From: Colletotrichum lupini | Taxonomy: Eukaryota; Ascomycota; Sordariomycetes; Glomerellales; Glomerellaceae | Direction: 5' to 3' | DNA length: 64,000 nt | NCBI RefSeq assembly: GCF_023278565.1 | Contig: NC_064681.1 | Coordinates: forward strand, 4,712,001-4,776,000 | Shown: piece after piece, positions 31,153 through 64,000 of the stretch | Layout of the letters: each line of letters starts with the position of its first letter | Numbering within the stretch: position 1 is the first letter of the stretch | Translations under genes and position numbers: made by a program | The notes under the pieces: generated by a model | Told to the model about the DNA's origin: nothing | The model's database searches: none | What the model saw: only the letters and a program-made list of their open reading frames with translations

Positions 31153-31361
31153 TGTCAATAGGTATGTGACACAGGGAAGAAGCTCATAGAGGCTAACTGC
31201 TATTAGGGTCTAAAAAAGGAATTACTAAAATCTACCCTTCCCTCGAGGTATATTATTAGCGCTCTATATATACTTAAACTACTCCTTTATTACTTAGTCC
31301 CCCTCTTTATATCCCCTAAACTATTCCTTAACTAACGAGGCCTAACTAACGAGGCCTAATA
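31153..31361 (-). repeat. Left LTR of outer element (3' LTR in element orientation)
   Basis: 209 nt, equal in length to the right copy and alignable without gaps. All 37 differences are transitions. The first 80 or so bases keep C/G where the right copy has T/A; the remainder shows the opposite. Preceded by CTTGG. Confidence 0.93.
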
Positions 31362-32448
31362 GGGTACTCCCTCCCCTAGGCTTTATTTTAAAGCCTACTT
31401 ATAGTTTATATATATTACGTTAATCCTTTACTTAAAAAGTCTTTAAATATATAATATAAAAGTAAGTATAAGTAGTGCCCGTTAGCCTAAGTATAGACCC
31501 CTTATTTTAAATAATAGCCCTATAATTTTATACTTAGGTCGCTCTTATTTATAAGCCGTTTTTACGACTATTAGTATTTAGGTAGTCGTCGCCCTATTTT
31601 TATTTATTAATATTAACCCTTTTCTAAGCTATTACGATTTTAAATTCCTTTTTTCTTTTTTATTTATAATTATCCTTTTTATATATAGTCTTTTACTTTT
31701 ATTAGTATTTATACTACTCCCTCGTTATATAAATATTATAATTAATAAATATTTCTTAGATCCCTATTTTTATATACTTCCTATGCTTAAGTAAGTCTTT
31801 TATAGAGTCGTTTTATATTTATTATTAACTTATTTTAGTATAAATATAGTTCTTAATTACGGAGTTATTATTATTAATAATAAAACGGTTATTAGTACTA
31901 CGGGTGCGCTTAGTAATAATAATAATAGCGGTCTATTTAAAAAGCTTAATATCCCCTTTACTTACCCTAACCTCGTATATATATTACTACTTATATACTA
32001 CTTATATTAACAATTATAAACTCTTATTAAAAAAAAAAAGCGAACGTTAAGAAAATTAGGGTCGGCTAAGTACGCCCGCTCCTTTACCCCGCTTATATTA
32101 TATATAAAGCGCTTAATTTAAAAGCTAAGTATTATAATTAGCTAGGTTAGTAATTTATAGCCCCTAGTTCGCTCCTTTATTTAATATTTTTTTAAGATTT
32201 AGCATACGTTATATTAAGTATATTGCGTAGAACTATTTTTATAAAAATATAATAAGCGCTTAGCGCGGTTATTATTTTATTATTTCTTTTATATATTATA
32301 TTAATAATATTTTAAGTCCCTAAATCCGCAGAATTTATAGTCTAAACTTTATAGAGTACTACTCTTATTTTAAATAATAACGTTTATAATTTAGAGGTTT
32401 ATTACTTTATTATCGCTTTATTATTACTATTACTCGGGTTATTAATAT
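31362..32448 (-). pseudogene. 3' end of outer element internal region, RIP-degraded
   Basis: AT-rich remnant between the left LTR and the nested insertion. It starts with the polypurine tract next to the LTR. No motif can be read here and stops occur in all frames. Confidence 0.6.
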
Positions 32449-32453
32449 TATTT

Positions 32454-32665
32454 TATTACGAAAGGGAACTCGAGGCAGGTCGGAACGCTGCTATATTGAC
32501 CTAATAGACGTAACTTAATATAAAAAAGGAAAAAGTAGACTAGTAGGCAGAATCTGGGGCGCTGGGCTTTTAGGCCTAGCGGTCTAGTAGTTACGTAACT
32601 TATAAGGGGTCCGTTAGGTACCTAAGGCCTAGGCGCTAAGGGGCCTAGTACCTAGCGCCGTAATA
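32454..32665 (-). repeat. Left LTR of inner element
   Basis: 212 nt. The centre, around AGAATCTGGGGCGCTGGGC, is identical in both copies and keeps normal GC. The outward-facing first 50 or so bases keep C/G where the right copy has T/A. RIP damage is much lighter than in the element body. Confidence 0.92.
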
Positions 32666-33777
32666 TTACCCCCCCCTCCGGTATAAAAAGCGCTATTCGT
32701 AGCGCTTAATTCCCTATTTTAACCCTTTATAATTACCTTTTATAAGCTTATAATAAGGGCGGCTACTACGTTATCGTTAGCCCGTAGTAGGGCCGGGCTA
32801 TTACTAGCCGCTATTTTTATTTATAATATAAAGTTTTTTAGTAGTCCTATAGCCGTTAGGTATTACTTATAAAACGCCTATAAGGCCGCTAGCGTATAAT
32901 AAAAGCTCTTTACGTCGTATTACGTAAGGTCCTTATTATACCCTTTTTAATTAGCTTAGTATTATAACTTACCGTACTATACTCGCAATTTAACTATTTA
33001 TAAAACCTTATACTTAGGCTCGTTAGAGCTATAGAGGATCGGTAGTAAGAGGTCTTAGTATTATTTAAATAAGGGGTCCTTTATAGCCTTTCTTAGCTTA
33101 TTTAAGTAAAAGACTGGGTAGGCTTTACTCTTTATAAGTAGTTTTATAATTTATATACTACCTAGGCTAGTACTAGTAATAGGCTAGGGGCTAGCCTAGG
33201 GCTATTATAGTTTATTAACGTCTTAGGTCTTTTAATAAGATACGTTTATAAATACCCTATTACTAATCTTTAGGTTATTAGGCCGTCGGTAGTAGTTAGC
33301 GTACTTTTAGTATCTTATTTAAGTAACCCCTATATCACTTTTAATAATCTCCTAGGCCTCGTAAATACTTTAGGCTATTTTCTAAGCCTTAGTATAGTTA
33401 AGCTTCTCTTTAGTTAAGTTAAAGCGTCGGGTTCTAGCGGCCTAGTTAAAAGATAGTCGAGGCTAGCGGCCGAATTTAACCTCGTAAAATAATAGTCCCG
33501 TAGTTTTACTAAGTTAGGCTATATAAATAAAGTTTATTATAAGTAGTATATTACTCTAGTTATCTTAGTAATAGTTAATTAGGGGTCGTAGCTGCTAGAG
33601 GATATATTAGTTTAAGATCTCTATTTAACTATCTATTTACGAGTAGTCTATTATTAATAACTATAGCTTAACGCTATAAAGCCTATATAGCTCCCCTTAA
33701 AAGTCTAATATAAACTAAAGACCGCGGTTAGAAATAATAGTCTTAAATAGCCCGAAGATTAGTAGTACTCGTTTATA

Positions 33778-33909
33778 AAACATCCTACTTATATCCCGTG
33801 CAATAGTAGTTTTATAATAAGGTACTAATATAGCTCTTTTACCTAGTCTATTAACTATAACGTATATCGTATCGTAGCCCTTTTAGTTAGGGAGTACCGT
33901 TATAAAATC
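33778..33909 (-). pseudogene. Decayed Gypsy integrase core of inner element
   Basis: Read on the minus strand from 33909, one frame gives DFITVLPN, a stop, then KGYDTIYVIVNRLGKRAILV and PYYKTTIARDISRM. This is the usual Gypsy integrase catalytic region (DFIxxLPxS, VDRxxK). The Asp of VDR is Asn here and the Ser before KGYD is replaced by a stop-containing codon, both explained by G-to-A change. Confidence 0.8.
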
Positions 33910-35189
33910 TATCAAAATATATTACTACGGGTAGTTAGGTATAAGTAGAGGCCTTAGCTCCCCTAGGGGCCTATCGCGGGGTTTTTAAGAGCGACGGTAC
34001 GTATAGTAGTTTTTAATATATTAGTAAATATTTACTATAAGGCTAGGCTAGTAGTACTATTATTTAATTATCTTAACTACTTTATTATGCCCTAGGTACG
34101 TTAGGAGCCCCTGTTTATATACTTCTTAGATAACTATAGTACGCAAATTATCCTCTTTAAGCACGACGAGCTTACTATTTATTATAAATAATCTATTATT
34201 TTAAATTTTCTAACGCTCGTAGCCCTCGGCTATTAGCGCTCGTATTAGAGTAAGCGATATTATTATTAAGTCGTAGTTAAGCTTTAGTACTTTTTTAATT
34301 AATAAGTACTCTTAAAGCTCGTCCTCTAGCGTAAGGGCCCTAATTATAAGCTTAGGCTACTACGCCGCGTTCTCTAATAGTACTTATAGCTCGGTAATAA
34401 TATTTAGTAATAGTAGCTCTAGTAATAATAAGACCTAGGTTCGGTTAGCCTTTTTTAGTACTTATTAAGTCCTAATATCCTCGTTCTTTTTTAATAAAGC
34501 GTCGGTAAGTATATTTTCCCGCCCTAAGTAATACTAGATTTAAAAATTAAAGTCGGCTAGAGCGCTAGCCTAGCGGGCCTATTATAAGTTAAAGAGATGC
34601 TTCGTTATAAAAAATAGGAGCGGCTAGTAGTTTATAATAATATCGAACTTTTAATAATAGCTAACTAGTTCCGCGCGCTACTTCTCTAAATAGATTATTA
34701 TTATTAGTATTTTTTTATTATATATAGTATAATTAAGCTCTATACCGTTTATAGTTTTTAAATAGAACGCTACGGGGTATTATAAGCTATTATCTATTTA
34801 TTATTAGACTAGGGCTTTAGCGTATACTAAGTCTAACGCGTTAGTCTCTAAGTATATAAATAGCTCGGGCCTAAAGTAATAAAGTATAGGCGCCGTTATA
34901 AAAGCTAGTTTTAGTACTTCGAACGTAGTATTATAATCGGTATCGAATTAAAAAGGCACGCTTTTATTAGTTAGCTTTATTAATAATCTAGCTAAGCGCC
35001 CGTAGTCCTTTATAAACCTCTTATAAAAATTATAAAAGCCGAGGAATAATTAAATACCCTTAAGCAATATAGGCGGCTTTTAGTTCTTTACGATAGAGAC
35101 CTTATTTTCGTCAGGTTATATACTATTAGTACTAACGACGAAACCTAAGTACTTCGTAATAATAATACTAAATTCGCACTTCTTAATAT

Positions 35190-35700
35190 CGGCCTATAAT
35201 CTAGCTTTTTATAAGCGATCTAGCACCTTCGTAACGTACTTATAGTACTATAGGGGGTCGTTTAAAAAAATTAGGATATTATTTATATACGTAATATAAA
35301 AATCGTCTAAGTACTCTATTAGCACGTCGTTTATATATTATTAATACGTAGCTAGCTTATTATAAAGGCTGAAGGGTAGTACTTTATATTTATATACCCC
35401 GTAGCGGGTATAAAAGGTCGTAAGGTTTTTTAAAATAAGGTTGAGGTAGATATAATAAAAGGCTTATTTAATATTAAGTTTAGTAAATACCTTAGCTCGG
35501 CTTAGCCACGTTAGCGTCTCGTTAATTAGAAATAGAGGGTACTAATCTTTTTTTATAATCTCGTTTAGCTTCTTAAAGTCGATATAGAATCGTAGGCTAC
35601 TATCGTATTTCTTAATAAATAATATAAGCGATACAAAGGGCACGTTACCGGGCTCGATAAATCCCTTATAAAAGTACTTTAAAAAGTAAGCTCTAATTAC
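35190..35700 (-). pseudogene. Decayed Gypsy reverse transcriptase of inner element
   Basis: The minus strand at 35313-35290 reads EYLDDFYITYI around the polymerase active site (YLDD at 35302-35313), intact at this point. Surrounding sequence in the same frame carries stops. The outer limits are approximate; only the active-site segment was read codon by codon. Confidence 0.7.
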
Positions 35701-38536
35701 CTCTAGCTCGGGTACCGATTACTTATAAAGGGGGTAGTAAATAAGCTTCTCTCGGCCTCCCTTTACGAGCTCTATTTTATAATTATAACTATAGTATAGT
35801 ACTAACGTATCGCTCACTACTTTACTAAAGACGTCGGTCTAAGGCTTTAGTACTTCTAAAAGCTTTATAATAATAAGGTCTCAGGTTTTTTAATTATTAC
35901 TTTTTAGGGGGTCCTCTTATCCTATTTACTTATCCTTAATTATATAGTTTAGCTTATATAATAATATAAAGCTTAGCTCGACGTCCTCGCGCTTTAAGTT
36001 AGTCTTAAACGCTAGGGTACTAATAAAAGCGATATTAAGGGCGGTATTAGCTCCCTTATACTAAGTAGAGGTCTATGCGGGTTTAGTTTTTTTTAGAGGG
36101 GTTAATAGCGTATTAATAAGCGCGCGATTTATTTTCTAAGTATTTTTAGTATCGTTAAACTACTATATATATCGGTCTTATGAGCCCTATAATTAATAAA
36201 ATATCTTAGTAGGTTTAAGTAGTGCCCGCTTTTTTTATAGTTATTCGTCGTACTATACTATATTTATTTCAAATATCTCCTACCGTTACTTAGTATTAAT
36301 TTAGTATTATATATTAATAACCTTAGGGGTATATAGGTCCTCTATATCCTTAATAATAGTAAAGGGGGTATCTTATAGTAGTAGATCCTCGGGCTATATT
36401 AAGTACTTATAGCGCATATTTAAGTTAACTCTATAGTACTCGAACTACTTCCGCCCTAGGATTAGGTCGTAGCGCCCTATATTAAGTTAGAATAGGGGTA
36501 TTTTTAAGAGGACCTAGCGGTTAATATATAAGTTAGTAATTTATACTATACTAGCGTTTTCTAATTACTCATTATTAAATCCGGTAGTAGGGATAGGGCG
36601 TAGTAATTTACTAAATAGGGCTGTGCAGAATTTTTATAATAATAAGGTTCCGTAGTTATTTATAAATCTATACTTATTAACTCCCGTATTAAATAAGGCT
36701 TTTAAATAAATTCTATATTTATTAAATACTATTATAAGCTCGATCTCGAGAGGCTGCCCCCTTATAAAATCCTATAGGTTTATTAAATAAATTACTAATC
36801 TTCTATCTTTATACTTATCCCCTAGCTAGGAGGTTATTTATACTAAGGGGCTTAGTTTTCTAAGTCCGAGACGTATTACTTATTAGTAGCGTCTATAACT
36901 ATTATAATAGTATCTAGCTTCTTAGGATAGTCCCGGGAGACGTAGCTAGGCTTATTATAAACGAAATAGGCACCGCTATCCTTAAGCTTTTAATATAAAG
37001 CCTTAGGGATAGTCTTATAGCTTATAGTTTAGCTATAAGTATTTTACTTAGTAATACTACTACCTCTATTTCTTTTTCTAATAGGGGTAATATAAATAAG
37101 TATAGTACTCTTAGGGGCCCTATTACTAATTAACAGGGGCTATATTATATTAATAAGCTAAGTAACGTACTTAGTATACTTTTAAAAAGTCGCGTCCTTA
37201 TCTAAGTACTTCGAGATAGCCTAGTTCTAAAAATAGATTAGGAGCTTATTATAAAAGCGGCGCTTTTATTAAGACTTAGGGAGCTTATTAATATAAATAA
37301 GCTCTATAAAAATAGAGCGCTTTTAGTAAACGTCCTTAAGGGTAATAAAGAGGGCGTCTAGTTTTTAACTAGCGTCGTTTATTATAATAGGGCTAATATA
37401 AGCCGATTTAAGCTTATATAGTAGCTAGTTTATTATAATAATCTCGTTAGAAGCTAGTATAAAATAAATAAACTCTACCGTAGTACCGCCGACCTTATTA
37501 ATAACGTATTCTAAGTAGTATTTATTAGTACTAAAGTTCGCGTTCTTAAGGCGCTTTATAATACGCTAGAGCTAATAAAGGAACTTTAGCCCCTTATTAT
37601 CGTCGTTACTTATAAAAATAGAGACGTTAAGTATTTTAAATCTATAAGAGGGCTAGTATACCGAGGCTAGTATATTCTCGTAGTTACTTTATACCTCGAG
37701 TTTAGTAAGGCACTACTTTAGTATATAATAAGTATTATCTTTACGCTCGCTATTATTAATACTAGTTATAGAGCCGTTTTTTAGCTACTTAACGCGCTTA
37801 CTAAGCGCGGTATTAATACGAAGGGCGCGGTCTAACTACTTTTTAGTATTCTAAAGCTCTATAATAATAGTACGTATAACCTTAATATTTTCCTTAGTTA
37901 TTTTATAAAGCCGCTCGGTACTATTACTTAGCTAGCTAACTATAAAAATAAGTACTTATTTAAAGTAGTACTAAGTAATGCGCATCTTTAGCTAGCTCTC
38001 GACTTAGGCCTAGAGGGCGACGCCCTTATCCTAATTATATAAGTCCTAAATAAACTTAAAGTTAGTATTATATTACTTAGTATTACTAAAAAAACCCTCG
38101 TTACGAATCTAAATAGGGGACGCGAGCTCGTTATTAATATAATAAAAGTATTCGAGTCGATCGGCCTATATAATAAAAAATAAGAGTTATTTTACGAGCT
38201 AGTTAGAGAGGTCGACCTCGGGGTTAAATATAGGGAGTTCGGTATTTTTATTAGCGCCTATAACGCTCTAGCGCTACTTATATAAGTAGTAACCTTATTA
38301 AAAATTATCGGTATAAAGAGATATTTACCCTCCTCGGCTCTTATCTCGGATTATAGCGTTTAGTAAAGGGGGTATATATTTAAGGGGTATTAATTACTTT
38401 GCGTAATTAATTAGTTAGCTATTACTTAGCGTTGCGCTTTTTTTTAATAAGGGTAGCTATTTGCTATAATAAATTAAATAGGTTAAGATATTATCGTTCT
38501 ATTTTTAGAGAAGGAATTATAGTAAACGTTAAGTAG

Positions 38537-38748
38537 TATTATAAAAGGGAACTTAAGGTAGGTTAGAACGTTATTATATTAACCTAATAGACGTAACTTA
38601 ACGTAAAGAGAGAAAAAGTAGACTAGTAGGTAGAATCTGGGGCGCTGGGCTTTTAGGCCTAGCGGTCTAGTAGTTACGTAACCTATAGGGGGTCCGTTAG
38701 GTGCCTAAGGCCTAGGCGCCAAGGGGCCCAGTGCCCAGCGCCGTAACA
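38537..38748 (-). repeat. Right LTR of inner element (5' LTR in element orientation)
   Basis: 212 nt, same length as the left copy. The last 150 or so bases keep C/G (for example GGTGCC, CCCAGTGCCCAG) where the left copy has T/A. The first 50 show the reverse. Followed by ATTTT. Confidence 0.92.
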
Positions 38749-38753
38749 ATTTT

Positions 38754-41700
38754 ATAACTTTAGTAAACTTATTAAATTACTATTAGTAATACGTAGAGGG
38801 TGCTTAAGTACGCTAATAAAAAGGCCCGCTCGACTCTTATTATTAATAGCGATAATAATAAGGTAGCTATAAGCTCTTTTTACGCTATATTTTTGTTTTA
38901 TAACGACGCTATAATTACGTTATTTTATATTATCCGTAACGAAGTACGCTACTTAAATAATATTTTAGTTAGTATATAATTACCCCGCTTACGCTCCGTA
39001 TTCGTAGCTAATTATTTATAGATTCGTTAATAATAAGGAGATTATTTTTTTCGTAACGACCTTTAGGATAATAACTAGGGCGGCCTTTTTATATATAAGG
39101 GTAGTTTTTTTATAAATAAGGGCGGTCCTCTTGCGCATTATAAGGATTAAAAAAACGGTTCGTAATTAGTACGTTTACGCTACTTAGTTATAGCTATATA
39201 GCCCCCTTTTTTTTTTTATTAATAACTAGTTCGCTATGTTATTAAGCTTATTAAGAGCTAGGGCGCGCTATTTAATTAAAACTCGTTTTTTATATATACT
39301 AATTATCGCTACGTTTTCGATATACTTAGCTAGCTCTTATATATTTTTATTATTACTATATCCCTTTTACTAAATTAAGTATTATTACATCCTCTTTAGC
39401 CCTTTATATTATATAATATTTTTTATTTTATAAAATAGCTCCCTATTTATATTTTTAATAAATAAAGGCTTTTAAAGGGCTTTTTTATAATATTAATACG
39501 GCTTAAGTAAGGATATATAGAATATATTGTATATTTTATATTACGTTAGTATATTTAGTTAGTAAGCGACCCCTATTATTCTAATTATTAATTTAACTTT
39601 AAATAGGCCTAGATACTTATTAACTAATTTCTAACTAGGACGCTACTTATTAATATTCTTTTTTAATAATAATACTTAGTTACTTACTTTATATAATATA
39701 TTTATCCTAGCTTTATTAGTTTATTATTTATATATCTTATATACCTTTTATATAAGGGGTTATAGAGCTTTTTAATTAGCTTATAATCGGGCCGTACGCT
39801 CCTTAGCTAAAATATTTTATATACTATCTCGAGCCCTTATTAAGATCGATATAGGGTACGTAAATAAGAACCTAAGTAGGGCCTTAATAAGCACTTTATA
39901 AATTACTAAGTACTAAGCGTTATTATATATAAACTTAGCTAAGTAAAGATATTATACCTAATTTAATTAATCTTAAGTATAGAAATAATAAAAGTACTAT
40001 TCTAAGTATTAGTTTTATTATTTTATTTAACCGTTCGTTTATAAATAGAATGCAGTACTAAGACGCCTTTTTATTACTAAGAAGTAGTAGAGATAAGTTT
40101 AAAACTTATTTATAAATAACGACCCTTTATTAAAAACGATCCCTCTAAGTATTTTAAACTTAGTAAAGATTTTTATAAATAGGAGGTCTACGAATCCCTA
40201 GGCTATAAGGGTCGTCCTCGTAGTAATATAAACGTTATATTTCGTAAATCGGTCTATTATAATAAGTACTACGTCGCAGGGGCGCTTTTTAATTAGCGTA
40301 GTTAATATAAATAAGCCCGTAATAAAGTTTAGTAATATTTTTTACTATAGCCTAACCGGGGTAGGTAGGGGGTATAATAAGCTATATAGCTTATAATAAC
40401 GAGGCTTCGTTTATTAGTATATTATATAAGTATTAACATAATTTTTTATATTCTTACTTACTCTATTTTAATAATAGTAGCGTTTTAGTAGCGCTATTAT
40501 TTATTTTATATTATAATATCTTATTATAAGTATATCGTAATATATTTTAATAACCTCCCTCCTTAGCCCCTTATATAGTAGTATATAAGCATAGTTATTA
40601 TAATATAATAGCCCTTTTAAGTCGTATACCTAGCTCTATTATTACTTTTTCTTAACTAAATAAGGCCGTTAGTTTTTTTTAGTTTATTACTTATTTTTTA
40701 TAAAAGCGTCTTTTTATTAAGCGGCCCATAGTTAACTTATTATTAATAACCCCTCTTTATTAACTACTATTTTAAGTACTCTTATTATATCGGAGTCCTA
40801 TAGAACGAGTAGCTCGCGATTTATAGTTTTAATAATAGGCTTAAGTAGCTCTTTAAGTACTATATTATAACTTTAATACCCTAGGCTCGTAGCCCCGTTA
40901 TACCTCTCGAAATACTCCTTAGAGTTCTTTTAAACTAGAGCTCTTAATCTCTTTTATTTATTTTTTTATATTATTACTAGTTCTATTTTTAAAATACTTA
41001 TTATCCCTTTTACTTAGGAGCCGCTCCTATAGCTCGTTTTTATATACTTAATTACTATAACTTTAAGGGGCTCTTATATATTTTTAGTATTATAAAAGTC
41101 TTCTCTTATTTTTGATAATAGCTCCTCCGCTCCGCTATTATTATTATTTTTATTATAATTAGGTTTTTATAATAGTTTATTTATTAAGTTCTTTATATTT
41201 AGCTTAAACTTAATTTTAATATTAAACGTTACGAGTTTATTTAGTTAGTATAACTATTTCCCGTTTAGTCTTTTTTTTATATTTAAGAACTATAAGTTAA
41301 AATAATCTATAAATATTACGACTTAATCTTAATTATAAGTAAGGTAGTATTATTAGTTCTTTAGTAAGTTTACGATAACTAGTAGCTTTATATTTTTTAT
41401 ACTATAGCGGCTCTCCGTATTTATTAATTTCCTTAACCTATAAGTAATTAGGTACTAATTATTTTTAAATAATTACGTAATTATTAAGCCGATAGCTCGA
41501 GCCGAAGCGTTTATTTATAACTATATAAATAGGGTAAGGTCGAAATATTATAATATTAGCGCGTTAGTAAATACTATTAGTAGCCTTTTAAATAACTCTA
41601 TAATAAGTATTAATAGCTCTAACTATCCCGGTTTTATTTTCCTTAGTAAGTTTATTAAAAGTATTATTATTTTAGCGTAGTTACTAATAAATCTATAATA

Positions 41701-44589
41701 GAACGCTATAAATTTAAGGAACGTTTATATATTTTTAACGCTTTTGGGAAGTAGCTAATTTGTTATAGTTTTAATACGCGCGGGTTTTATTTTTACGCTT
41801 TTATTAAATACGATATACCCTAGGAATCCTATACGTAATATATAGAACTCGTATTTATTATTATTTAGATATAGGTTCTATTATTATAGTCTTTATAATA
41901 CGCTGCGTACGTGCTTTTTATATATTACGTAGTTATTATTATATATTAGGATATTATTTAGGTATACGATATAGACGGTATTAACTAGGCCGCTTAGAAC
42001 GTTATTAATATATACTTAAAAAGTCGTAGGTGCGTTAGTTAGCCCAAAAGGTATAACTAAGTACTCGAACTACCCGTATTTAGTATAAAAAGCCGTTTTT
42101 TACTTATTGCCCTTAGTTATACGTATACGGTAGTACGCGTTTTTAAGGTCTAGTTTTATAAAAATAGAGGTATTAAATAGTTTATTTAGTATTTCTTTAA
42201 TTAGCGGTAGCGGCGTTCTATTTTTTTATATAATCTTATTAATTACTCTATAATTAACATAAAGTCGTAACTCTCTTCTTTTTTTAAGTATAAAAAGGAT
42301 AAGTACTTTTACTAGGCTTATAAAGGGGCATATTTAGTCCCTAGCCTCTGCTTTTATTAAATAGTCGCGCAGAATCTTAAGCTTATAGTTTAATAATAAG
42401 TAAATAGGTCCTTAGGAAATAGGCGCCGCGTCGTTTAGCTTAATATAATAATCGTATAGTACTCTATTTAATAGCGAAATAGCTTTTTTTTTTAAAAATA
42501 AGTTATTAAAATCTTAGTAACGTAGCTTTTAGTCCTCGGCTATACTTATTAATATTACGTTACTATTTATAACTAAGTTAATTACGATATACGTAAGTAT
42601 TACTAAAACTAAGTTATTTAGTAGCCCCTTTTTTAAGGTATCTAAGTAGATATATCGTTTATAAATTAGATATTATTACTTTTTTTATTTTTAACTAATT
42701 AGCGGGTCGATATTTTCTAGCTAAGGGAAACTAAGGATAAGTATAAGCGCTATAATATTAGTTATTATAAAGCGATATAACTATATTTCCGTTACGTAGT
42801 TATTATTAGTAATTTAAAGCTATAAGTAGTAGCTTCTTAGCGTCTCTATTTATTTATTTTTTATGTTTACTAGCTATAGTAATAAGTAAATTTATAAATT
42901 AGCGTTAAAGCTATTAAATAAACCGATACTAACTACGTTCTTTTTTATTCCTAAATTAATAAGGGCGCTTAGCTTTTTTTATATATAGTTTAAGTATATA
43001 TAAGTCGGGACGTTTAAGCGCCGCCCTTATTAATCGCTAGCTACTCTTTTTATTAAAATAGTATTTAAGCTCGTTATTAATCTACGCTACTTAGTTAGGG
43101 CGAGGTTTTATTAATAGCTAGCGGCCTTATACCCCTTTTAATTATATTTATAATATATAACGCTCGGGTAGCTATTAGTAAAGTACCTAGTTTTACCGTA
43201 GTTATAGTACTATTAATACTACTCTTACGGTTATAAATAATCCCTTATAATATAGCTAGTCTTTTTATAATTATAATACGTAGTATTCTTATTAAGCGAG
43301 TTATAGCATATTCCTTATATATTTAACTTATTAGCGCCCCGGTATTTTCTTACTAGCTCGTTCGAGTTTAAGTTAGAATATTACTTAGGGGACGTTTATA
43401 GGCTCCTTATTAATAATAAGGATTATTTAATACGTTTTACTAGCGATATTAGTTATAAATAAGTCTATAAAAGTTTTATTTATAATATTATTATAAAGTA
43501 TAGTTCGGGCTATAGCGTATTTATTAGTATAGAGATCTTCTATTTTTTTATTAAGATATATTTTAGTTCTATCTCGAGCTTATTAATATAGCTAACGAAC
43601 TCGTTAACTTTCTCTTTTTAACTTTATAAGGCGCTATTTAGTTATATACTTATTATTATTTTTTAACTAGCGGGATTAAATAGGTTATTTTATAAAAAAG
43701 TCTTTAGTTTTTTTTATATAACCTAGTTTATTATAAACCTAGGGGTCCTTTAGTAATTAAAAATATAGTATATTTAAGAAGTTTTTATATTACTACTTAA
43801 GTAACTAACTATATATACTACTTTATTACGGTCTATTTTTATTTATTAAGCTTATAGGTCAAAGCAATAGTAATAGTTAAAGAGGAAGCTCTATAAATCC
43901 TATATTAATTTATTAATATATAATAAGTTAAGGAGGGATAGCGGCTTAAATATAAACGTTCTATTTATAGCGCTTATTTAAGTTAAGAAGGAGCTAGTAA
44001 ATAGGGGCTTAAGTAGTACGAACTCGTCGCTTTATTATTACTTAAGCAGCGCTTTAAGTACGGCTTTATTTATTAAACTATTTTTAATTTAGGGGTTTAT
44101 ATTTTTATTTATATTAAAGTTAACGTCCGAGGTTATTATAACTAAGACCGTAGCCCTTAGCGCGGGGGCCGGGCTATTTAAAAAGCTCTATAAACGTTTT
44201 AAATCTACTCGTTTTCTATATAAGCGCTTTTTATACGTTATAATAAGGATTTTTTTTTTTAATTATCGTTTTTATTCTTATAATTTCATTAGCTTATTAT
44301 TTATCGTTCGGTTCAAGTATTAGTAAGTAAGGGTAAGAGGTTCGCTATTTTATTTAAAATTCGTTAATATTCTTAGTAATATAGTCTTTTTATATTATTA
44401 TTATATTATTTATTTTATTACGCTTCGTTCTTATATTATTTACTAAGGAGGAGGCGACTTTAGGGGGTTTAATAAAAAAAAGTTATTTTTTTATTATTAT
44501 AGCGCTAACTACGCTCTTTTATTACGTCTCGTTCTTATTAATATTTTAAGCTTCTAACCTAGTCCCTTTTATAAATAAAGATTTTAAAT
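38754..44589 (-). pseudogene. Main internal region of outer Gypsy element: decayed gag and pol
   Basis: Read on the minus strand, the order is gag zinc knuckles then reverse transcriptase. Two CCHC knuckles at about 43240-43280 and 43183-43209 now read YYNYKKTSYIIRDY and YYNYGKTRY, with Cys changed to Tyr by G-to-A. The reverse transcriptase active site is YLNN at 41953-41964 instead of YLDD, followed by ILIY, then KKHVRSVL and a further stretch with KYEFYILRIGFLGYIV, the typical Gypsy order. Integrase should lie in 39-40.8 kb but I did not read it reliably. Stops are frequent throughout. Confidence 0.8.
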
Positions 44590-44798
44590 TATTAATAAGT
44601 ATATAATATAAAGAAAAAGCTTATAAAAGCTAATTATTATTAAGGTCTAAAAAAGGAATTATTAAAATCTGCCCTTCCCTCGAGGTATACTACTAGCGCT
44701 CTATATATACTTAAGCTGCTCCTTTGTTACTTAGTCCCCCTCTTTATGCCCCCTGAGCTATCCCTTAACCGACGAGGCCTGACCGGCGAGGCCTGACA
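44590..44798 (-). repeat. Right LTR of outer element (5' LTR in element orientation)
   Basis: 209 nt. The last 130 or so bases keep GC-rich sequence including a tandem GACGAGGCCTGAC/GGCGAGGCCTGAC motif, while the inward part is heavily AT-shifted. Followed by CTTGG. Confidence 0.93.
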
Positions 44799-44803
44799 CT
44801 TGG

Positions 44804-46350
44804 CTTATCTACATGTTCCAGTCATGCTGTATTAACAATGATGAACCTGTTTTGGTAATCGACGGTCGGATGAAGCGGATTATCCTAATTTGCACCCTGA
44901 TGTATTGTTAGTGTGCTCGGAGAGAATGCGCTCGGAAATCTGTAGGAGCCGGAGGATGCACACTTCTTCTTTTGCGGCATATTAGACTTTGCTGTCTAAT
45001 ATGGAAAAGGCCCGATCAGGTTGGATCAAAGTACGATATCGGCCTTCGGATCCGCAACTCGCCGTAAATGCCTCCACAGACAAGAAATGGCCTCAGCTAC
45101 AAGTTCGTGATGTGAGATGCATGCACTACCTTAGTATCGGGTCATAGATGACCGCGAGCTAGCTGTCATCGCACGAACATTCGCCGCGGATGCAGACCTA
45201 GTCAGCCCCATACGTCAGCGTGAAAGATTGCGATGGCGCGATAGCGTATTGATCATGGAGGTGAAGTCTCAAGGGCTGCACCGCTGGTGGAAACAGTACT
45301 TCGTCAGTTTCCCGCGGATAATGGATGTTTATCGAGTCGATATCGCGTGGGACAGCTCGACCGAGATCATTCAGGCTAGCATCTATGACGTTGGTCCCCT
45401 CTATAGTGTGTATGTAGGCCTTGGATTCCATGTGTGCGATTTGAAAGTAAACAACAACATACGCTGAGGGGGAAAACGCTCGAAAATCTTCCAAAGTTTG
45501 ATTGCTGCGCTGGACCTCCCAGTCGCAATGCTTTCATGCATCTAGACTCTGTCGGGAAACTCCTCACTTGGAATCCTACATGCACAAATCACCTTGAACG
45601 TTCTTAAGCATCAATGTCGAATGTAGGGGTTGGAAACTCAGCTAAAACGGACGGCCAATTACTCTCGAGGATAACTACTCTCTCCAGGTCAATGCAAGAA
45701 GGTTCCTAGACAACTCTAATCCTTAGAACCAAGGTTTCTTCTTCTTCTTTTTTTTCTTTTCCTTTTTCTTAAAAGTTTCCCTACCTAGGCAAATAGGGTC
45801 CATCAATTCGCGATGCTTTTTGCTGTCGTCACAAATACTACCGAACGGGACCAATATCCCGACGTATGGAATCAGGATGTGCGCGATATGCGGGGTTTCG
45901 GGGAAGCGATCAGCAGTAGGGCAGGTTGGCTAGCCGGGCAGTCTTGGTGACGGAGGGTTGCAGGCCCTGGACGGAAGGAATCCTTACCTGTTGTCAAGTG
46001 CGTGACTGGATTGGTGCATATTTGAAGAAATTGGCCGAGTTATGCAGTCTTCGCTCGATTTTGGCAAACTTCCAATGTAAATCCCCAAGATCTATTGACG
46101 AGCTGGGAGATGATTGAAGTGCCGTCTTCGTGATCTCGGGGTAACAAATGGACTTCGGCGTATCATCGATGGCGAGAGCAGGCGCTAGCAGGAGCAACTA
46201 AGTGCATCGCAGCTGCAGATGATGAGGGATGAATCGTGGATGAAGCGATACTGACCAGACTTGAAGTGATATAAATTGCAGTCGACTTTTGGTTAATGCC
46301 GCTGAATTATACAGTAGCCACATGAACTCGATGCTCGAGATCACCATATC
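44804..46350. other. Non-coding flank right of the transposon block
   Basis: Composition returns to normal immediately after the target duplication. No supported gene. A minus-strand frame at 45198-45494 begins with TTG and is unrecognised. A pyrimidine-rich tract lies at 45736-45771. A TATA box at 46270-46275 belongs to the exo-polygalacturonase gene. Confidence 0.5.
46270..46275 (+). promoter_or_regulatory. TATA box of the exo-polygalacturonase gene
   Basis: TATAAA lies 81 nt upstream of the ATG at 46351. Confidence 0.5.
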
Positions 46351-51191: not shown

Positions 51192-53414
51192 TCATGAGAA
51201 TCCTAATGTTCCCGTCACCTCGTAGTAGCACGAGTATACGGGCGTCAGGTCCTGCGTCACCTCCGGCTTGCGTACGATTTCAACACAAGACTTTTGACGA
51301 CGGAGGGCCTTGACCTTGTCTGCACTCGTATCCCTTCGTGGAAGTTTCGTAGCCATGCTCTCGACGTACTCCTTCAGCTGGTCAGCCAACAGTACTGCCC
51401 TAGCCTTGCGCTCATACACGGTGACATCGTCGAAATCATTAGCCTCCTCTTCGTCGAGCTCCCCCAAGCCACGCCTGTGTGTCGCGAACCGTAGTGGTGT
51501 CTTGACTGCTTTCACTTTACGCACAAAGTCGCGACGGCGAAGGTGATATCTGGACGACCTGGCGCTCCAGAAGTCTTTCGACATCTGTCCCAGCTCCTCG
51601 GCACGAGCAGACGCCAGGCCTGCGGGCGTGACGTTCACGTTGCATTTCCAAGACCCCGGCGCTAGCTTCTTGTCGGAAGAGACCATGGACTTGACGAGGT
51701 TCCGCATGCGGGTTTCGAGGAGCGCCCCATTGCCGGGAATAGTGTGGTCGACCAAGCCCATCCTCCGAGCTTCAGCTGGTGATAGCGGTGTCATGTCACG
51801 CAGCAGCTTGGTCGCTCCGGCTGAGCCACAACGTCCGGTGTAGGACAGGGAATGATATTCCGAACCGTGCAGGCCGATCGCACGGTAGGCTGGGTTGAGA
51901 ACGACCTCGGAGCCAGCAAGCACAATGTCGCATGCGGCAGCCATGGCAACGCCGCCCGCTGCACAATTGCCTCTGATGCCAGCGACGGTAAGAATGTTCC
52001 GTGATGGGAATTCGTGAAGGAGGTAGTGCACAACGTCATCAATGCGGTTGATGTTGAGCCAGGACTCAAGCGCCGGGTCCGCAGCAGCCTCGATAACGTT
52101 TAATGCAATACCGTTGCTAAAGTATCCGTCACCCCCCATGAGCACAAGGGCGCTGAGTGGTCGTTCCACGACATGAGTGGATGCGATAAAGTCAAGGGCG
52201 TCAATCATGCGAGAGCACTGATCTGTACTCATGGCGCCGTTGTAGAAGTTGAAGTAGAGGAAAGCGACCCGCTTAGCATTGGTGAATGTCTGGAAGTCAA
52301 CTGATATGTCCTGCTGGGTATCGTGTGAAGCTCGGGACCAATCGATCGTCGCCCTGGATATGCGATTTTCTGTGATGGCGTCGCTGTCGAGGATGCCCAA
52401 CTCTCTCAGGCCTGAGACAGCAGGTACCTTTGGCCATAGCATCGTGTCGGTTTTCTTCTTCACACGACGAATGTGAGTGATCCAGATGGCCTTCTTGTCG
52501 CAAGTCGCAACGCAAACGGCGTCATCCCGGCAAGCTACAACTTTGCCAGGTGGAGTGTGGGCAGTGAGATCATTGCCTTTTTCGATGTTGCCGCCATAAA
52601 CATAGAGGCCCGGGCCAAATAACTTGGTAAGACAGCCTGGCTGAGAGTCCGAGCATCGAATCCTCCGGGATATTTCCCGAGCCGTGTGTGACTGAATGTT
52701 GAAGTCGCGTTGGGCCGCCTTGAGAAGTGGCCGATGACGTGTTACTCCGCCGAGGAAAGCTTTCTGCAGTGTGACAGAGGCGTCGCGGTAGGCAGGGTTT
52801 GCTCGGAGTAGCGGAGTGACATGATGCGGGGCGAACTTCTCAAATCCGGGCGACGGGGGTGGAGTGTATGGCGAAGCAGCTTGGACAGATGCCGTTTGTA
52901 TTCTTTCAATGGCTGCAAGCGTGGCTGTAAGTGCAGCTCGTGTAACGGGACCACGGTAAAGGCTCGACTTCGTGACAGCTGGCGAGTCAATCTGCAAAGG
53001 GAACTGCTCAAAGGCCCAAACTGGCCCGGCATCGAACTCTTCCACAGCTTGAAGGACAGTGACACCCCAGTATGGTCGGCCAGACTCGCTCCAGGAGCCT
53101 TTTTGGAGGAGAGTATCGGGATCGGCCTCTGTCCCATCATCACCCATGAGCACCCAGTCCAAGGCACTTGGACCGGCGTCTCCAGGGGGACCGGGGTGAA
53201 CGATTATGGTGAGGTAGTTTTCGTAGATTTCTTTTGGAACACGGGCTGTGAGGAAAGGGCAGATAATGAGATGAGGCTTGGCAAGCCTGGCCGCCTCGAT
53301 CATGACATCGTCTGAGAGGGCATATTCGATGGTGATTGTATGGGACTTTGACAGCGCCACATATAGACGCTGCGAAAGCGAATTGTGCGCGGTACAAAAG
53401 AAGAGAATATGCAT
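51192..53414 (-). CDS. HypX/HoxX-like protein: formyltransferase-like domain fused to enoyl-CoA hydratase-like domain
   Basis: A single intronless frame of 740 residues from the ATG at 53414, where homology begins (MHILFFCTAHNSLSQR). In-frame sequence up to 53525 is probably leader. Residues 1-175 form the formyltransferase-like domain: SDDVMIEAARLAKPHLIICPF, VHPG with His73, GPSALDW, WGVTVLQAVEEFDAG with Asp128, and KSSLYRGPVT. Residues about 195-325 match the second formyltransferase-type domain. Residues about 380-600 are the crotonase part: MGGDGYFSNGIALNVIEAAADP, SWLNINRIDDVV, GNCAAGGVAMAAACD, LNPAYRAIGLHGSEY. Residues about 610-650 follow the usual HoxX end. The last 90 or so residues are an extra charged tail. 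Bacterial HypX makes CO from formyl-CoA for the [NiFe]-hydrogenase ligand. Fungi lack that enzyme, so the role here is unknown. Cytosolic: no targeting signal seen. Confidence 0.88.
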   Translation of the reverse strand: MHILFFCTAHNSLSQRLYVALSKSHTITIEYALSDDVMIEAARLAKPHLIICPFLTARVPKEIYENYLTIIVHPGPPGDAGPSALDWVLMGDDGTEADPDTLLQKGSWSESGRPYWGVTVLQAVEEFDAGPVWAFEQFPLQIDSPAVTKSSLYRGPVTRAALTATLAAIERIQTASVQAASPYTPPPSPGFEKFAPHHVTPLLRANPAYRDASVTLQKAFLGGVTRHRPLLKAAQRDFNIQSHTAREISRRIRCSDSQPGCLTKLFGPGLYVYGGNIEKGNDLTAHTPPGKVVACRDDAVCVATCDKKAIWITHIRRVKKKTDTMLWPKVPAVSGLRELGILDSDAITENRISRATIDWSRASHDTQQDISVDFQTFTNAKRVAFLYFNFYNGAMSTDQCSRMIDALDFIASTHVVERPLSALVLMGGDGYFSNGIALNVIEAAADPALESWLNINRIDDVVHYLLHEFPSRNILTVAGIRGNCAAGGVAMAAACDIVLAGSEVVLNPAYRAIGLHGSEYHSLSYTGRCGSAGATKLLRDMTPLSPAEARRMGLVDHTIPGNGALLETRMRNLVKSMVSSDKKLAPGSWKCNVNVTPAGLASARAEELGQMSKDFWSARSSRYHLRRRDFVRKVKAVKTPLRFATHRRGLGELDEEEANDFDDVTVYERKARAVLLADQLKEYVESMATKLPRRDTSADKVKALRRQKSCVEIVRKPEVTQDLTPVYSCYYEVTGTLGFS

Positions 53415-54690
53415 CGTGACGGCGTTGGACTGAGACAATAGCAGCACAGCAACTTGGAGAAGAGAAGTAACAGAGAGTGTGGGTTCCTTATTTACTTGCG
53501 AGGACGTGCGATCAAGTCGCATCATATATGCTGTTCATGATGGGGTGCGAGGGGTCTTCAGGAGGAGGGGTTCCTCCATCGGAGACTTCAGCTTGTGAGA
53601 TGCACAAGTGGCTTCTGCCCACCACCCGTTCCTGACCGGCCATGTGCGACATGAAAGTTTAACGGTCGTCTCCTGGCGCTTGCCATAAAAAACCATGCCA
53701 TGTTCAATGCACCCCGCTTGTCTTGCTGAGTGGTGGTCTTTGACTCCGATCCGCCTACCTCGAGTCCCGCGAAAGTGACCGTGGTATTGTTGTTGTTGTC
53801 ATCCTAGCTTCGACTTGGACCCACGCCTTCACGCCAGACCGGACGAACCGGGCTCGGACCCAGGCGTGGTTTGGACGAACCATCCCAAGTGGCTGCTTTA
53901 TCGGACGAGATGCTTCCTCTTGACTCAGGGGCGCGCGCTGAATTGGGCGATGACTGGTAGGCGCTAAGCTGAAGAGCAAAGGCTTTGCCTGACTAGCGCG
54001 TCCAGTCACCATCTCTAGTCAGCGACGCTCAACTGAACAAAGCTATGCAGTACAGTAAACGATCTGTTTCGACGCCATCGCAGAGCTTGGGGATCAGCAC
54101 ATCCGAATCGAGTAACTCTTAGTCCACGGGGTCCGAGCATCTCTCGTGGTGTGGCTTTCACGGCATCCAGTCAATAAGGGGATGTGATCTTCTCCATACA
54201 GCCGAGCACGGCCCTCCTGGGGGTAATGTGAAGCTTGTGGTCCACGTTTCTCGGCCGAATTTCTATAATCGAAGAAAGTTTGGAGACGATTCCTAATCAG
54301 TCCGATGGTCTCTAAAGGGTCCTGCAAATCAGATCGCGGCGACGTGATGCATGACTCTCCACATTCTCGATCGTGTGTGGGCCGCTTCAGTCTCTAGGAA
54401 CAGAGTAGAACGGCATTAGTTTGATGTGACAGCGACGGCCAATGTGATGATACATTTGCTGATTGCCTTCGTACTAAACGAAGCCGAGTACGATGTTAGG
54501 GCGCCCTTGGCATACCTGCATTCGTTGTCGTTGAGAAGCGAGCCCAGGGTCCTGGCATCCGGATACTGCGAGTTCCAAAATGACCGATGCCACTTGGGGT
54601 AGGTGAACTACCTTATTAAGGTAAAGTATCTACGGATAACAAGCCGTCTAGAAATGTGATTGCGCCTTTGGACGGAGAGGTACTTGCTGT
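53415..54690. other. Intergenic region
   Basis: About 1.3 kb between the HypX-like start (promoter side) and the Rad26 3' end. Only short random frames. No repeats or RNA genes recognised. Confidence 0.45.
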
Positions 54691-57209
54691 TCAGACCCCA
54701 AACGAAATGGCGATACTATCGCCCTCGTCAGGGGTCACGGCAATCTCCAATAACTCATGAGCTCGATCAACAGTATCCGCGTCTATCGCGTTCTCATAGA
54801 CCAAATCCTCTTCTGCAAAGTTAAGTCGTGACAAGGAAAGGATGTACCGTTGAGAGCCGCCATGGGACATGGAGAGCTTTGAGAGGATGTTTGCGACGTT
54901 GGCCGTCTGCGGATCTGTTACCATGGTATGGAGAAGCAGAATGATCTGAGATACCAACAAGGAGACGCCACTTCGGCCGTCGTCCAAGTCGTTTACACCA
55001 TCGCGGCGATCGTCCGGGGTAGTACCCACGGCCAAGTTCATGTGTGAAGGGGAGAGACCGCCACTGGAGGTATCCACTACGGGGTCCGAAAGGTCGTACA
55101 AAACATCGACAAGCTCGCCCAGAGCTGTGACTAACCGGGGTATGACACTGACGTGGCCCGCGACCTGTCGTGCTCCATACGGGGTACGGGTAAAGGCCAT
55201 GAGTGTTCGTAAGACTGCGAATCTTACTGCGTGCTTCTGGCTTACAGACGACACTGCTCTAGGTAAGTCGACTAGGTTGAGAGAAACCTTGTCGATGATC
55301 ATTCTAGCAGCTAGGTCGGCGTCTTTGCCTAGGATGATGGGGCCAAGGGAATCTGGGAGGGTAGAAGTGCACAGCATATCAAGCATGCCGATGATGTCGT
55401 CCAGCTGTTGTTTGGGGGTGAGAAGGATGAGAACTAGATCAAGAGTGATCAGCTGCCAAAATTCGGCTTGTCTCGTCTGCGCACCGCCGTCTGCTTCGAG
55501 CATTGTCGTAGCGCAGGCTGCGGCAGAGGCGTTCAGCAAAGACAGGATGTACGTAGTATCGACGTGCTGCTGCAGGGTTTCTGTGGCTGCCCCTGCTGAC
55601 ACATCGCCATCCTGGCTCTTGAATCGAGCTTCTGCAACTAAATAAATAGACTGTTGCAGCGTAGGAACCAAGTCACTGACGATCTGCGGGACCACTGATA
55701 TGGTCTGGAGCTGCAGAGTAAAGGAGAGGAGTGAGGCTAGGTCCCAAATTGGCCGCAAGAAATTCTCTCTCAAACACTGGCTCCACATCTGAATTACAAG
55801 ACGGGCGAAGTCTACCAGAAGTTGGACCGGATTCAGCGGCGTGCCCATGAGAGGCAAATGCTGGAAAATGAAGGATGCAAAAGACGTGGTCGGATCGGAC
55901 GGGTATGCGTATCGTGATAATATGTCAAAAGTCGGTGGTTCCCCATGCAAGGAGCCATGGTCTAATATGACTTGGAGAAACTACGACGCTGTTAGCCACA
56001 GATCCTTTGATGATGATACGTGATGTGGAGGAACATTACCTCGAAAGGGAGAGTAGTAGGTGCAGGGCCTGGATACTGGACTGGAATGGCGGTGGTCCCT
56101 GTGTCATCAACCATGATTACGTCTTGAGCGTCTGTCTCCAGAGCCATGACGGGACTATCGACTGGTGGCCGTTTCCGTTTGCCTTTGGTGGGCGTCCTCT
56201 CCGACAATGGAATAGCAACAGGTCCGGGGTCCCGAGTTTTGCCTCTGTTCTTGGTTGGACTTGGAGCGATGTCCATATCGTCAAATCCGTCCGCAACGCC
56301 CCAGGTTTTGGCAGCCTTCTTAGGTGTGGTGGTTCCTGGCGCGGCGGACACGGGCGCATTCTCTCTTCGGCGAGGGCGGGTCGAAGCATCCTTCATGTCC
56401 CTTTGGAGGAATTGTAACTCCGTGGTGGCTTGCCTTTCAGCCGCAATGGCGGCTTCCACAGCCCTCTCTTGCCTGGCAGCTTGTTCGGCATTCTGTTTTT
56501 TGAGGCGGGAAACCTCGGCTGCGTGATCCTGTTCCGCCTTGGTTGAATTTGTTCGTATGATGGAGGCCTCGCCTCGTGCAGAGTTTAGCTCAGATTCGAG
56601 GGCCCTGAGCCGTTGCTGGAGCGCTGCAATGACATCGTTACCAGGTGCCGCGTGCAACTGCGACTGGGATTGCGGGGGATTGAAGCGAGCGGACGAAGGA
56701 GGTGCTGGTCGGACGAATTGGCTTGGTGGAGGTCGATACGGAGCTGCAGGGTGGGCAGGCTGGAAACGCTGTGAGGCTACAGAGGCGTTGTAGGTTGGCA
56801 CGGGGGGAGGGTATCGCGGCCGCGAGGAGAGGGTCGGAGGGTTTGCATGGGCTGGTGGAGGATTCCATCTCTGTTGAGGTGGTAGAGGCGGGTGCCTGGC
56901 TGCAAGCGGCTGGGGCGGATGCTGGTGTTGATGTTGCTGTTGCTGTTGTTGGGAGATGGTCTTGTCTACGGAGGGGCGAGTAACGGGAGGTAGAAGTTCG
57001 TTGGTGACTTCGGCATCGTCGAGGTCGTCATCTTCGAACTCTAAGTCATCGTAGTTCTCGACTTGGGAAGGGTCATGGTGCGGAGGTAGAGTTTGAGACT
57101 GGGAGTCCTGTTTTCTTTGTGCTTGTGTGAATTGAATGGCGTTGTTCTCAAGCTCCTGGAGAGTGGTGTCGTTCAAATCATCAAAGTCGTCATCGTTGAA
57201 TTCGTCCAT
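54691..57209 (-). CDS. DNA-damage checkpoint protein Rad26/UvsD (ATRIP homologue)
   Basis: Two exons on the minus strand (57209-56040 and 55980-54691) give 819 residues. The 59-nt intron (GTAATG, branch GGCTAAC, CGTAG) joins PFE to FLQVIL, the conserved segment of fungal ATRIP proteins. The start MDEFNDDDFDDLNDTTLQELE is the acidic N-terminal region of this family. Residues 87-170 are low complexity with a Gln/His run and many Pro. Residues about 193-275 form a heptad coiled coil for oligomerisation. The alpha-helical C-terminal half carries the part that holds the ATR-type kinase. ATRIP brings ATR (UvsB/Mec1/Rad3) to RPA-coated single-stranded DNA and starts the checkpoint. A nearer-looking acceptor at 55971 breaks the frame, so 55981 is preferred. 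Confidence 0.85.
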
Positions 57210-63167: not shown

Positions 63168-64000
63168 TTACTTCTTCTTCTTCATCATAAGCTTTTTAAA
63201 AGGGTTCTTTCCCTTGAACCTGAGCCAAGTCCCGACATAGACTACGGCGTAATTAAAGACGATAAACCCGCAGAAGATGCCAAAGTCACGCCAGATATTG
63301 CTGTAGTAAACGCTGAAGCCTGCGCCGAACTCATCACCCGTCGCATACTGGCAGAACTCGCAGATGCCCCCATCTCCAGTCCGAACGTATCCACCAGCCT
63401 GCTGGATATAAGGCGCGGTGTAGTCTTCGCACGACTGGTTGGGAGGAGGCTGATATCTTGCAAACTCGCCAGACTCGCACTGAACAGGTTGATCATGGAT
63501 GGCGACTCCGAGGAATGCTTCCAATAGGTAGTGGAAAGGGGTGAGCCAGTACATCCAAGTCCTCCAAAACGTAGGAAGTTGAGCGGCTGGTACAACCACA
63601 CCGCAGAAACTGACGACGAAGAGGAAGAAGATGGGAACCAAGAGAGATGCGAGAAGCTCGTTGGGAGCGAATGCGGCTATGCCCTGGCCAAAGCTCACGT
63701 AGTATAGCTCGAAGAGAATGACCAAGAGGAATGCAAAGCCGGAGTTAAAGGCGGGAAGACGCCATCCAAACACACCCCACCACCAACAGTTGAAGTAGAT
63801 GCCTCCGGCGACAATAGCATAGGGAATCTCGACGAGAACTGCCGCTGTCGTCCAAGCAAACCAACTGTAAATCTTCGCGTTGTTCTCGCGCGACTGGAAT
63901 ATTTGGCGGGACTGCAGAAAGACTGGCTGCAATTGCTGGATGAGCGGCGGACTGATTGTCAGAGTCATGAAGATTGAGAATAGCCGATTCTGGTAGTCGA
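63168..64000 (-). CDS. PDR-type (ABCG) ABC transporter, C-terminal part, cut by window edge
   Basis: The minus-strand frame is open from the window edge, so the 5' part lies beyond 64000. About 276 residues are visible. They begin DYQNRLFSIFMTLTISPPLI and continue QQLQPVFLQSRQIFQSREN, the conserved start of the second ABC2 membrane domain of PDR/CDR pumps. About five transmembrane helices follow, then a large Cys-containing extracellular loop (VQCESGEF, NQSCEDY, GICEFCQYATG) and the last helix with the VYVGTWLRFKG end. The tail is a run of lysines. PDR pumps export drugs, plant defence compounds or lipids from the plasma membrane. The ATG at 63968 is internal, not the start. Which subfamily it belongs to needs the missing nucleotide-binding domains. 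Confidence 0.92.
   Translation of the reverse strand, partial: DYQNRLFSIFMTLTISPPLIQQLQPVFLQSRQIFQSRENNAKIYSWFAWTTAAVLVEIPYAIVAGGIYFNCWWWGVFGWRLPAFNSGFAFLLVILFELYYVSFGQGIAAFAPNELLASLLVPIFFLFVVSFCGVVVPAAQLPTFWRTWMYWLTPFHYLLEAFLGVAIHDQPVQCESGEFARYQPPPNQSCEDYTAPYIQQAGGYVRTGDGGICEFCQYATGDEFGAGFSVYYSNIWRDFGIFCGFIVFNYAVVYVGTWLRFKGKNPFKKLMMKKKK

Follow-up and report, generated by a model that had tools for sequence, protein, structure and literature searches.

A gene on the minus strand of Colletotrichum lupini (51192..53414) encodes a full-length homologue of HypX, the bacterial maturation factor, and we consider it fairly probable that its product makes CO for a use other than the [NiFe] cofactor. 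Positions refer to the window, the whole 64 kb stretch of DNA that was analyzed. The argument rests on the identity of the protein as HypX, on the conservation of its catalytic and CoA-contact residues, and on a genome that lacks matches to the three hydrogenase partners searched.

The sequence-only reading had assigned the protein the full HypX architecture, and this assignment held. A formyltransferase half is fused to a crotonase half over the full length of the molecule, and the motifs VHPG, FDAG, GNCAAGGVAMA and LHGSEY are all four present. The best PDB sequence match was Aquifex HypX (E 2.9e-98, 333 bits), which also covered the N-terminal half, and the best match outside HypX was an enoyl-CoA hydratase (E 9.5e-9, 37 bits). 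An AlphaFold model computed from a 55-row alignment (mean pLDDT 88, pTM 0.86) retrieved HypX chains as the top 8 Foldseek matches, with TM scores (target, HypX length) of 0.89-0.92 and 639-666 aligned columns; with Aquifex HypX the TM score was 0.92. The match ranked after these eight chains had an E of 2.5e-11. The hydrolase domain of 10-formyl-THF dehydrogenase and methionyl-tRNA formyltransferase are alike in N-terminal fold, but cover only that half and reach a Foldseek E of 5e-11 against 5e-53 for HypX. Membership of another formyltransferase/crotonase family, an outcome that the sequence-only reading had itself raised, was rejected, since HypX ranked far ahead in both the Foldseek and the PDB sequence searches. 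The protein shares with HypX/HoxX of Aquifex aeolicus (6J0P) and Cupriavidus necator both domains, their order and the predicted fold, together with the catalytic triad, the Y416/E426 pair and the CoA tether residues. It differs from bacterial HypX, to which it is 34-40% identical (15 bacterial rows), in carrying inserts and a 92-aa C-terminal tail, and from the HypX of [NiFe] maturation in its eukaryotic host, in its separate clade on a long stem, and in a genome without a match to the large subunit, HypD or the HypF finger.

The coding sequence (740 aa, stop included in the coordinates) has no intron, as had been read from the sequence, and lies in a 777-codon open frame (ORF 51192-53525, minus strand) whose in-frame upstream extension of 37 codons (53415..53525, minus strand) is probably a non-coding 5' leader. 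Translation likely starts at 53414 (M38 of the ORF) and not at 53525, because the M38 equivalent is the first residue in 152 of 204 homologues, their start lying at exactly the distance from an NSLSQ-type N-terminal motif that is counted from M38. The 204 homologues of the motif counts pool two homologue lists (the best 120 of each), and the NSLSQ-type motif was absent near the start in 8 of them. Judged by eye, the 37 residues upstream resemble those of the nearest homologue (P0001) less closely than the protein does overall (95%). The N-terminal formyltransferase (10-formyl-THF) domain (residues 1-180; 52875..53414) is followed by a Formyl_trans_C domain (residues 242-322; 52449..52691; PF02911, E 1.3e-9) and a crotonase (ECH) domain (residues 418-580; 51675..52163; PF00378, ECH_1, E 8e-16), all on the minus strand. 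The N-terminal formyltransferase domain model had no match in the Pfam search of the protein, and the identity of this half therefore rests on the alignment with residues 1-152 of Aquifex HypX and on the predicted model.

The gene occurs once in the 63.4 Mb, 12-contig genome, as the sole match of a genome search, and lies about 51 kb from the end of a 4.8 Mb contig. Going upstream, the first ORF with a match (54694-55950) is Rad26-like and 1.2 kb away, with a CTP-transferase-family ORF and then a PDR transporter beyond it; a GH28 exon lies downstream. No PKS, NRPS or terpene-synthase domain was found in 30 selected ORFs from the window start to the contig end, and among these ORFs hypX lies outside any evident biosynthetic cluster. 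A decayed copy or repeat-induced mutation was rejected, since the frame is open and the RIP indices calculated for the ORF (0.57 and 1.23) contrast with those of an AT-rich block elsewhere in the window. This block (30500-45500; 26-41% GC) bears a strong RIP signature, with TpA/ApT of 1.65-1.99 and CpA+TpG over ApC+GpT of 0.06-0.11 between 32 and 44 kb, and contains two pairs of diverged repeats, about 200 nt in length. Just outside this block lie matches to NPP1, a necrosis-inducing protein (ORF 29299-29838, minus strand), and to Hce2, a putative effector (ORF 26492-27085, plus strand). Pieces of a PDR-type ABC transporter gene are found near the contig end (window 63171-63998 with L073:1020-4217, both on the minus strand), and beyond them come genes for an Oxidored_FMN protein and a Zn2Cys6 regulator.

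The tail (residues 649-740; 51195..51470, minus strand) comprises the 92 aa past the end of bacterial homology, and supports the fungal addition of some 90 residues that had been surmised. It has an acidic LDEEE..DFD segment, and in the AlphaFold model a helix (664-689) is followed by disorder from residue 700, with CYY in the disordered end. Past the last shared motif, 23-215 residues were counted in the best 120 homologues and 0-21 in 56 of 58 bacterial rows, the two exceptional rows having 140 and 144. CYY falls within the last 45 residues in 164 of the 204 proteins, and was absent from 6 of 10 ends inspected (one Fusarium, Dactylellina, Orbilia, Zymoseptoria, Fulvia and Cladosporium).

For Aquifex HypX, the part of PMC6802093 drawn on here proposes that His74, Asp80 and Asp109 act in the transfer of the formyl group to CoA and that Tyr416 and Glu426 act in decarbonylation, and says that direct results are still lacking; it also cites mutants of R. 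eutropha at the Y416 and E426 equivalents as HypX-negative, and describes R9, Q15, R131 and R542 as not crucial for CoA binding. The generation of CO by R. eutropha HypX is called confirmed in a portion of a review (PMC12134894). The fungal protein retains the triad as H73 (Aquifex His74; 53196..53198), D79 (Asp80; 53178..53180) and D128 (Asp109; 53031..53033), and the proposed decarbonylation bases as Y510 (Tyr416; 51885..51887) and E519 (Glu426; 51858..51860), all on the minus strand. Each of the five was conserved in 120/120 homologues, which are the best 120 of about 3900 matches and, where named, all fungal. The corresponding counts among 58 bacterial rows were 57, 57, 58, 51 and 58, a single row (L055) being the exception at both H74 and D80. 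A stricter motif count over the 204 homologues recovered HPGxxGD in 198, DAGP (D109) in 203, LNPxY (Y416) in 201 and GSE (E426) in 204. The CoA contacts Q15, R131, S194, Q195 and N306 were identical in 40/40 fungal-side rows, the window protein included, and the same rows all carry Ala for R9 and Lys for R542. The comparison with the Aquifex active site that had been suggested from the sequence thus finds all five catalytic residues and these five CoA contacts in place. The proposal that the protein could make CO is backed by residues and predicted structure, and reaches as far as these do; the conservation would also fit formyl-CoA chemistry with another product, and the crotonase fold is versatile.

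Threonine occupies the Tyr416 position in 7 of the 58 bacterial rows, all of them Bacteroidota (L015, L018, L024, L031, L034, L038 and L062), and may render an essential role of Y416 doubtful. HypD was present in 7/7 of these genomes, beside hypX in six, and HypE adjoins hypX in the seventh. Threonine at this position, with hyp genes adjoining hypX, bears on the proposed decarbonylation mechanism.

The sequence-only reading had noted that the window has no hydrogenase or Hyp gene and that fungi are not known to have that system; the lack of a match now extends genome-wide for the three partners that were searched. Six-frame searches of the genome gave no match to the NiFe large subunit (PF00374; 5 of 14 controls positive), to HypD (PF01924; 4 of 14) or to the HypF finger (PF07503, zf-HYPF; 4 of 14). 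Since none of the three was matched, CO would serve something other than the [NiFe] cofactor. The same six-frame method recovered an MHYT exon and a heme oxygenase match in this genome. The latter was weak (E 7.6e-4), and through it the fungus may have an alternative source of CO.

By analogy with bacterial HypX, CO would most likely arise from 10-formyl-THF through enzyme-bound formyl-CoA. CoA would be a resident cofactor, the N-terminal half would transfer the formyl group from 10-formyl-THF to CoA, and the resulting formyl-CoA would be decarbonylated to CO. The same reaction would proceed in the fungal cytosol; a protein that begins at the likely start has no space for a targeting peptide. 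More speculatively, CO could be a signal read by an MHYT-type membrane receptor.

Several alternatives to CO formation deserve consideration. The protein could instead salvage formyl-CoA derived from the breakdown of oxalate or 2-hydroxyacyl-CoA, its N-terminal half running in reverse to hand the formyl group on to THF, while CO release would be minor or lost. Formyl transfer should be reversible and the N-terminal triad is intact, which fits such a role, as does an oxalyl-CoA decarboxylase route to formyl-CoA proposed in C. necator (in the part of PMC7486775 cited here). However, Y416 and E426 would be needless for salvage alone and are as strict as the triad (120/120), and the 30 selected ORFs around hypX gave no oxalate-metabolism domain, so that we regard salvage as unlikely. 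An acyl-CoA reaction of another kind, in which the formyltransferase and crotonase pair would have been recruited to alter a metabolite, perhaps in secondary metabolism, seems similarly improbable: the paralogues of Mariannaea sp. PMI_226 (four HypX in two subclades) and the genes for ACP, acyl-CoA dehydrogenase and amino acid-ACP ligase near Mycetohabitans hypX are suggestive of it, but the proposed catalytic and CoA-tethering residues are unchanged in the fungal protein and the 30 selected ORFs hold no PKS, NRPS or terpene-synthase domain. Retention of the HypX fold for protein binding through the tail, in a non-catalytic or moonlighting role, would make sense of the tail as a fungal trait, with its two conserved motifs and its helix leading into disorder; given the strict conservation of five catalytic and five tether residues, we hold it to be very unlikely. 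Contamination of the assembly by bacterial DNA, which an intronless gene of a bacterial family might bring to mind, is refuted by the 4.8 Mb contig of the fungal genome with its Rad26-like gene 1.2 kb away and by homologues at 77-83% identity in ten named Colletotrichum species.

The formation of CO for a purpose other than the [NiFe] cofactor, the reading that we prefer, invites comparison with bacteria. HypX is sparse there: among 369 sampled genomes of Gammaproteobacteria 21 carry it, and among 398 of Bacilli 5 do, with the centre genome counted in both surveys. HypD was present in 81 of 91 distinct HypX genomes (45/50, 20/21 with one repeat, and 16/21). Three HypD-less genomes (L060, L066 and L067) are nevertheless hydrogenase-linked and probably incomplete, because HypE or hydrogenase genes adjoin hypX. 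In seven of the 91, HypD is missing and hypX has no other hydrogenase gene next to it, and in 4 of these 7 the neighbor of hypX is an MHYT gene. An MHYT-PAS-GGDEF-EAL gene lies downstream of hypX in Peribacillus huizhouensis (L013, 10001-14159) and Bacillus aerolatus (L022, 1107-5326), whereas an MHYT-only protein is encoded upstream of hypX in an Alteromonadaceae MAG (L039, 8707-11701), in which the absence of HypD may reflect incompleteness of the MAG. The fourth (L102, Bacilli) has MHYT pieces downstream of hypX, with both frames broken. L013 and L022 are sisters in the tree and L039 is distant, and there were therefore at least two separate hypX-MHYT pairings. Scanning 95 loci for the motif (two loci were repeats, many had short flanks, and two close motifs were required) revealed no further MHYT pair. 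These pairs look as if a CO-producing enzyme were encoded next to a CO sensor.

MHYT is not beside hypX in the other three of the seven genomes (G479, Apibacter L052 and Paenibacillus alvei L063). The hypX frame is interrupted in L052 (Apibacter mensalis) and in L063, both without a HypD match, possibly through decay after loss of the hydrogenase. In G479, a chemotaxis receptor gene lies ahead of hypX. This arrangement, with a gene for a membrane methyl-accepting chemotaxis receptor directly before hypX, was seen at two loci in Bacilli (L106:368-3642 and L043:8406-11671); the genome of L106 is without HypD, and that of L043 has HypD elsewhere. No hyp genes or MHYT were found within 8 kb of the plasmid hypX of Mycetohabitans (L108) and Nocardia (L109 and L110). 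L108 is pBRH01 of the endofungal bacterium Mycetohabitans rhizoxinica, with hypX on a megaplasmid; nine Mycetohabitans plasmid records hold hypX, and the neighborhood data come from one.

An MHYT protein as candidate CO receptor has a precedent in CoxC of Afipia carboxidovorans, which senses CO via its MHYT domain and copper (in the part of PMC11347149 used here). Fungal MHYT proteins are known, with no CO link in the parts of PMC4007546 and PMC3576715 that were consulted. The C. lupini genome likewise encodes an MHYT protein, in which CO binding is putative; compared with CoxC, its homologue P0121 has a long remainder with no other Pfam domain instead of LytTR. The match (G000:C1:3476398-3476739) lies, as do all MHYT matches of the genome, on a contig other than that of hypX; none is beside hypX or in the window ORFs scanned. 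The best named homologue of the protein is from C. fioriniae (95%), and among 77 long homologues three MHYT motifs were found in 61, two in 14 and none in 2. The fungus thus has in common with L013, L022, L039 and L102 a HypX without a HypD match, but MHYT adjoins hypX in those bacteria and sits on another contig in the fungus. Among the best 120 matches of each search, several Colletotrichum species appear with HypX as well as MHYT, as do Verticillium albo-atrum, Sodiomyces alkalinus F11, S. alcalophilus JCM 7366, Pseudomassariella vexata and Xylariales sp. PMI_506; MHYT also appears for genera not seen with HypX. A search for HypX together with MHYT found no paper in the literature collection used. 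Tentatively, and with more doubt than confidence, we suggest that on several occasions HypX parted from hydrogenase and turned into a stand-alone synthase of a CO signal, that filamentous fungi inherited it and would draw CO from the folate pool, and that a separately coded MHYT copper receptor would read the CO. CO signaling in fungi is offered here as a testable hypothesis.

The gene is not peculiar to C. lupini, as the sequence-only reading might have led one to expect; its homologues are widespread across filamentous ascomycetes, judging from sequence matches. Those listed include ten named Colletotrichum species (77-83% identity, the best named being C. incanum at 83%) and, among the best 120 of about 3900 matches per search, Fusarium, Verticillium, Cryphonectria, Zymoseptoria, Cercospora, Fulvia, Venturia, Orbilia and Arthrobotrys, genera that we take to fall in Sordariomycetes, Dothideomycetes and Orbiliomycetes. 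Several fungal entries already carry the database label 'hydrogenase maturation factor HoxX'. Mariannaea sp. PMI_226 has four HypX proteins (P0018, P0019, P0086 and P0113) in two separate fungal subclades. Our literature search listed no work on fungal HypX or on a HypX-MHYT pair; among the papers listed, the one joining hoxX, fungal and Fusarium, on Magnaporthe NLPs, has hoxX in its reference list only.

In a 93-row tree, a single branch (SH-aLRT 100, stem length 1.48) separated the 36 fungal-side rows from all others. In a 55-row tree, the fungal rows grouped with four actinomycete HypX, from Nonomuraea, Embleya and two from Nocardia (ultrafast bootstrap 98, SH-aLRT 93). No hyp or hydrogenase genes lay within 8 kb of hypX in the four actinomycete loci, and the ORFs around two of them gave no clue. 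HypD lies 2.4 Mb from HypX in Embleya NBC_00888; for Nonomuraea, each HypD listing covered 60 of 122 records. A transfer of HypX from bacteria to fungi is plausible, because there is a single fungal clade on a long stem and the nearest sampled bacteria are actinomycetes. The bacterial origin put forward earlier thus gains in plausibility from phylogeny, in a 55-row tree that is unrooted and has a long fungal stem.

CO in eukaryotes is usually ascribed to haem breakdown. This origin has been described in a fungus in the part of PMC9659044 cited here. If our reading is true, many filamentous fungi would have, in a folate-fed CO synthase, a second route to CO beside haem breakdown, and the misleading label 'hydrogenase maturation factor' would be corrected in a fungus without a hydrogenase match. 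The MHYT domain, whose response to CO is known in one bacterial protein from the portion of the literature covered, would gain a possible ligand source. If the signaling hypothesis is also true, fungi would possess a haem-independent gas-signaling pathway, paralleled by the hypX-MHYT pairs of bacteria.
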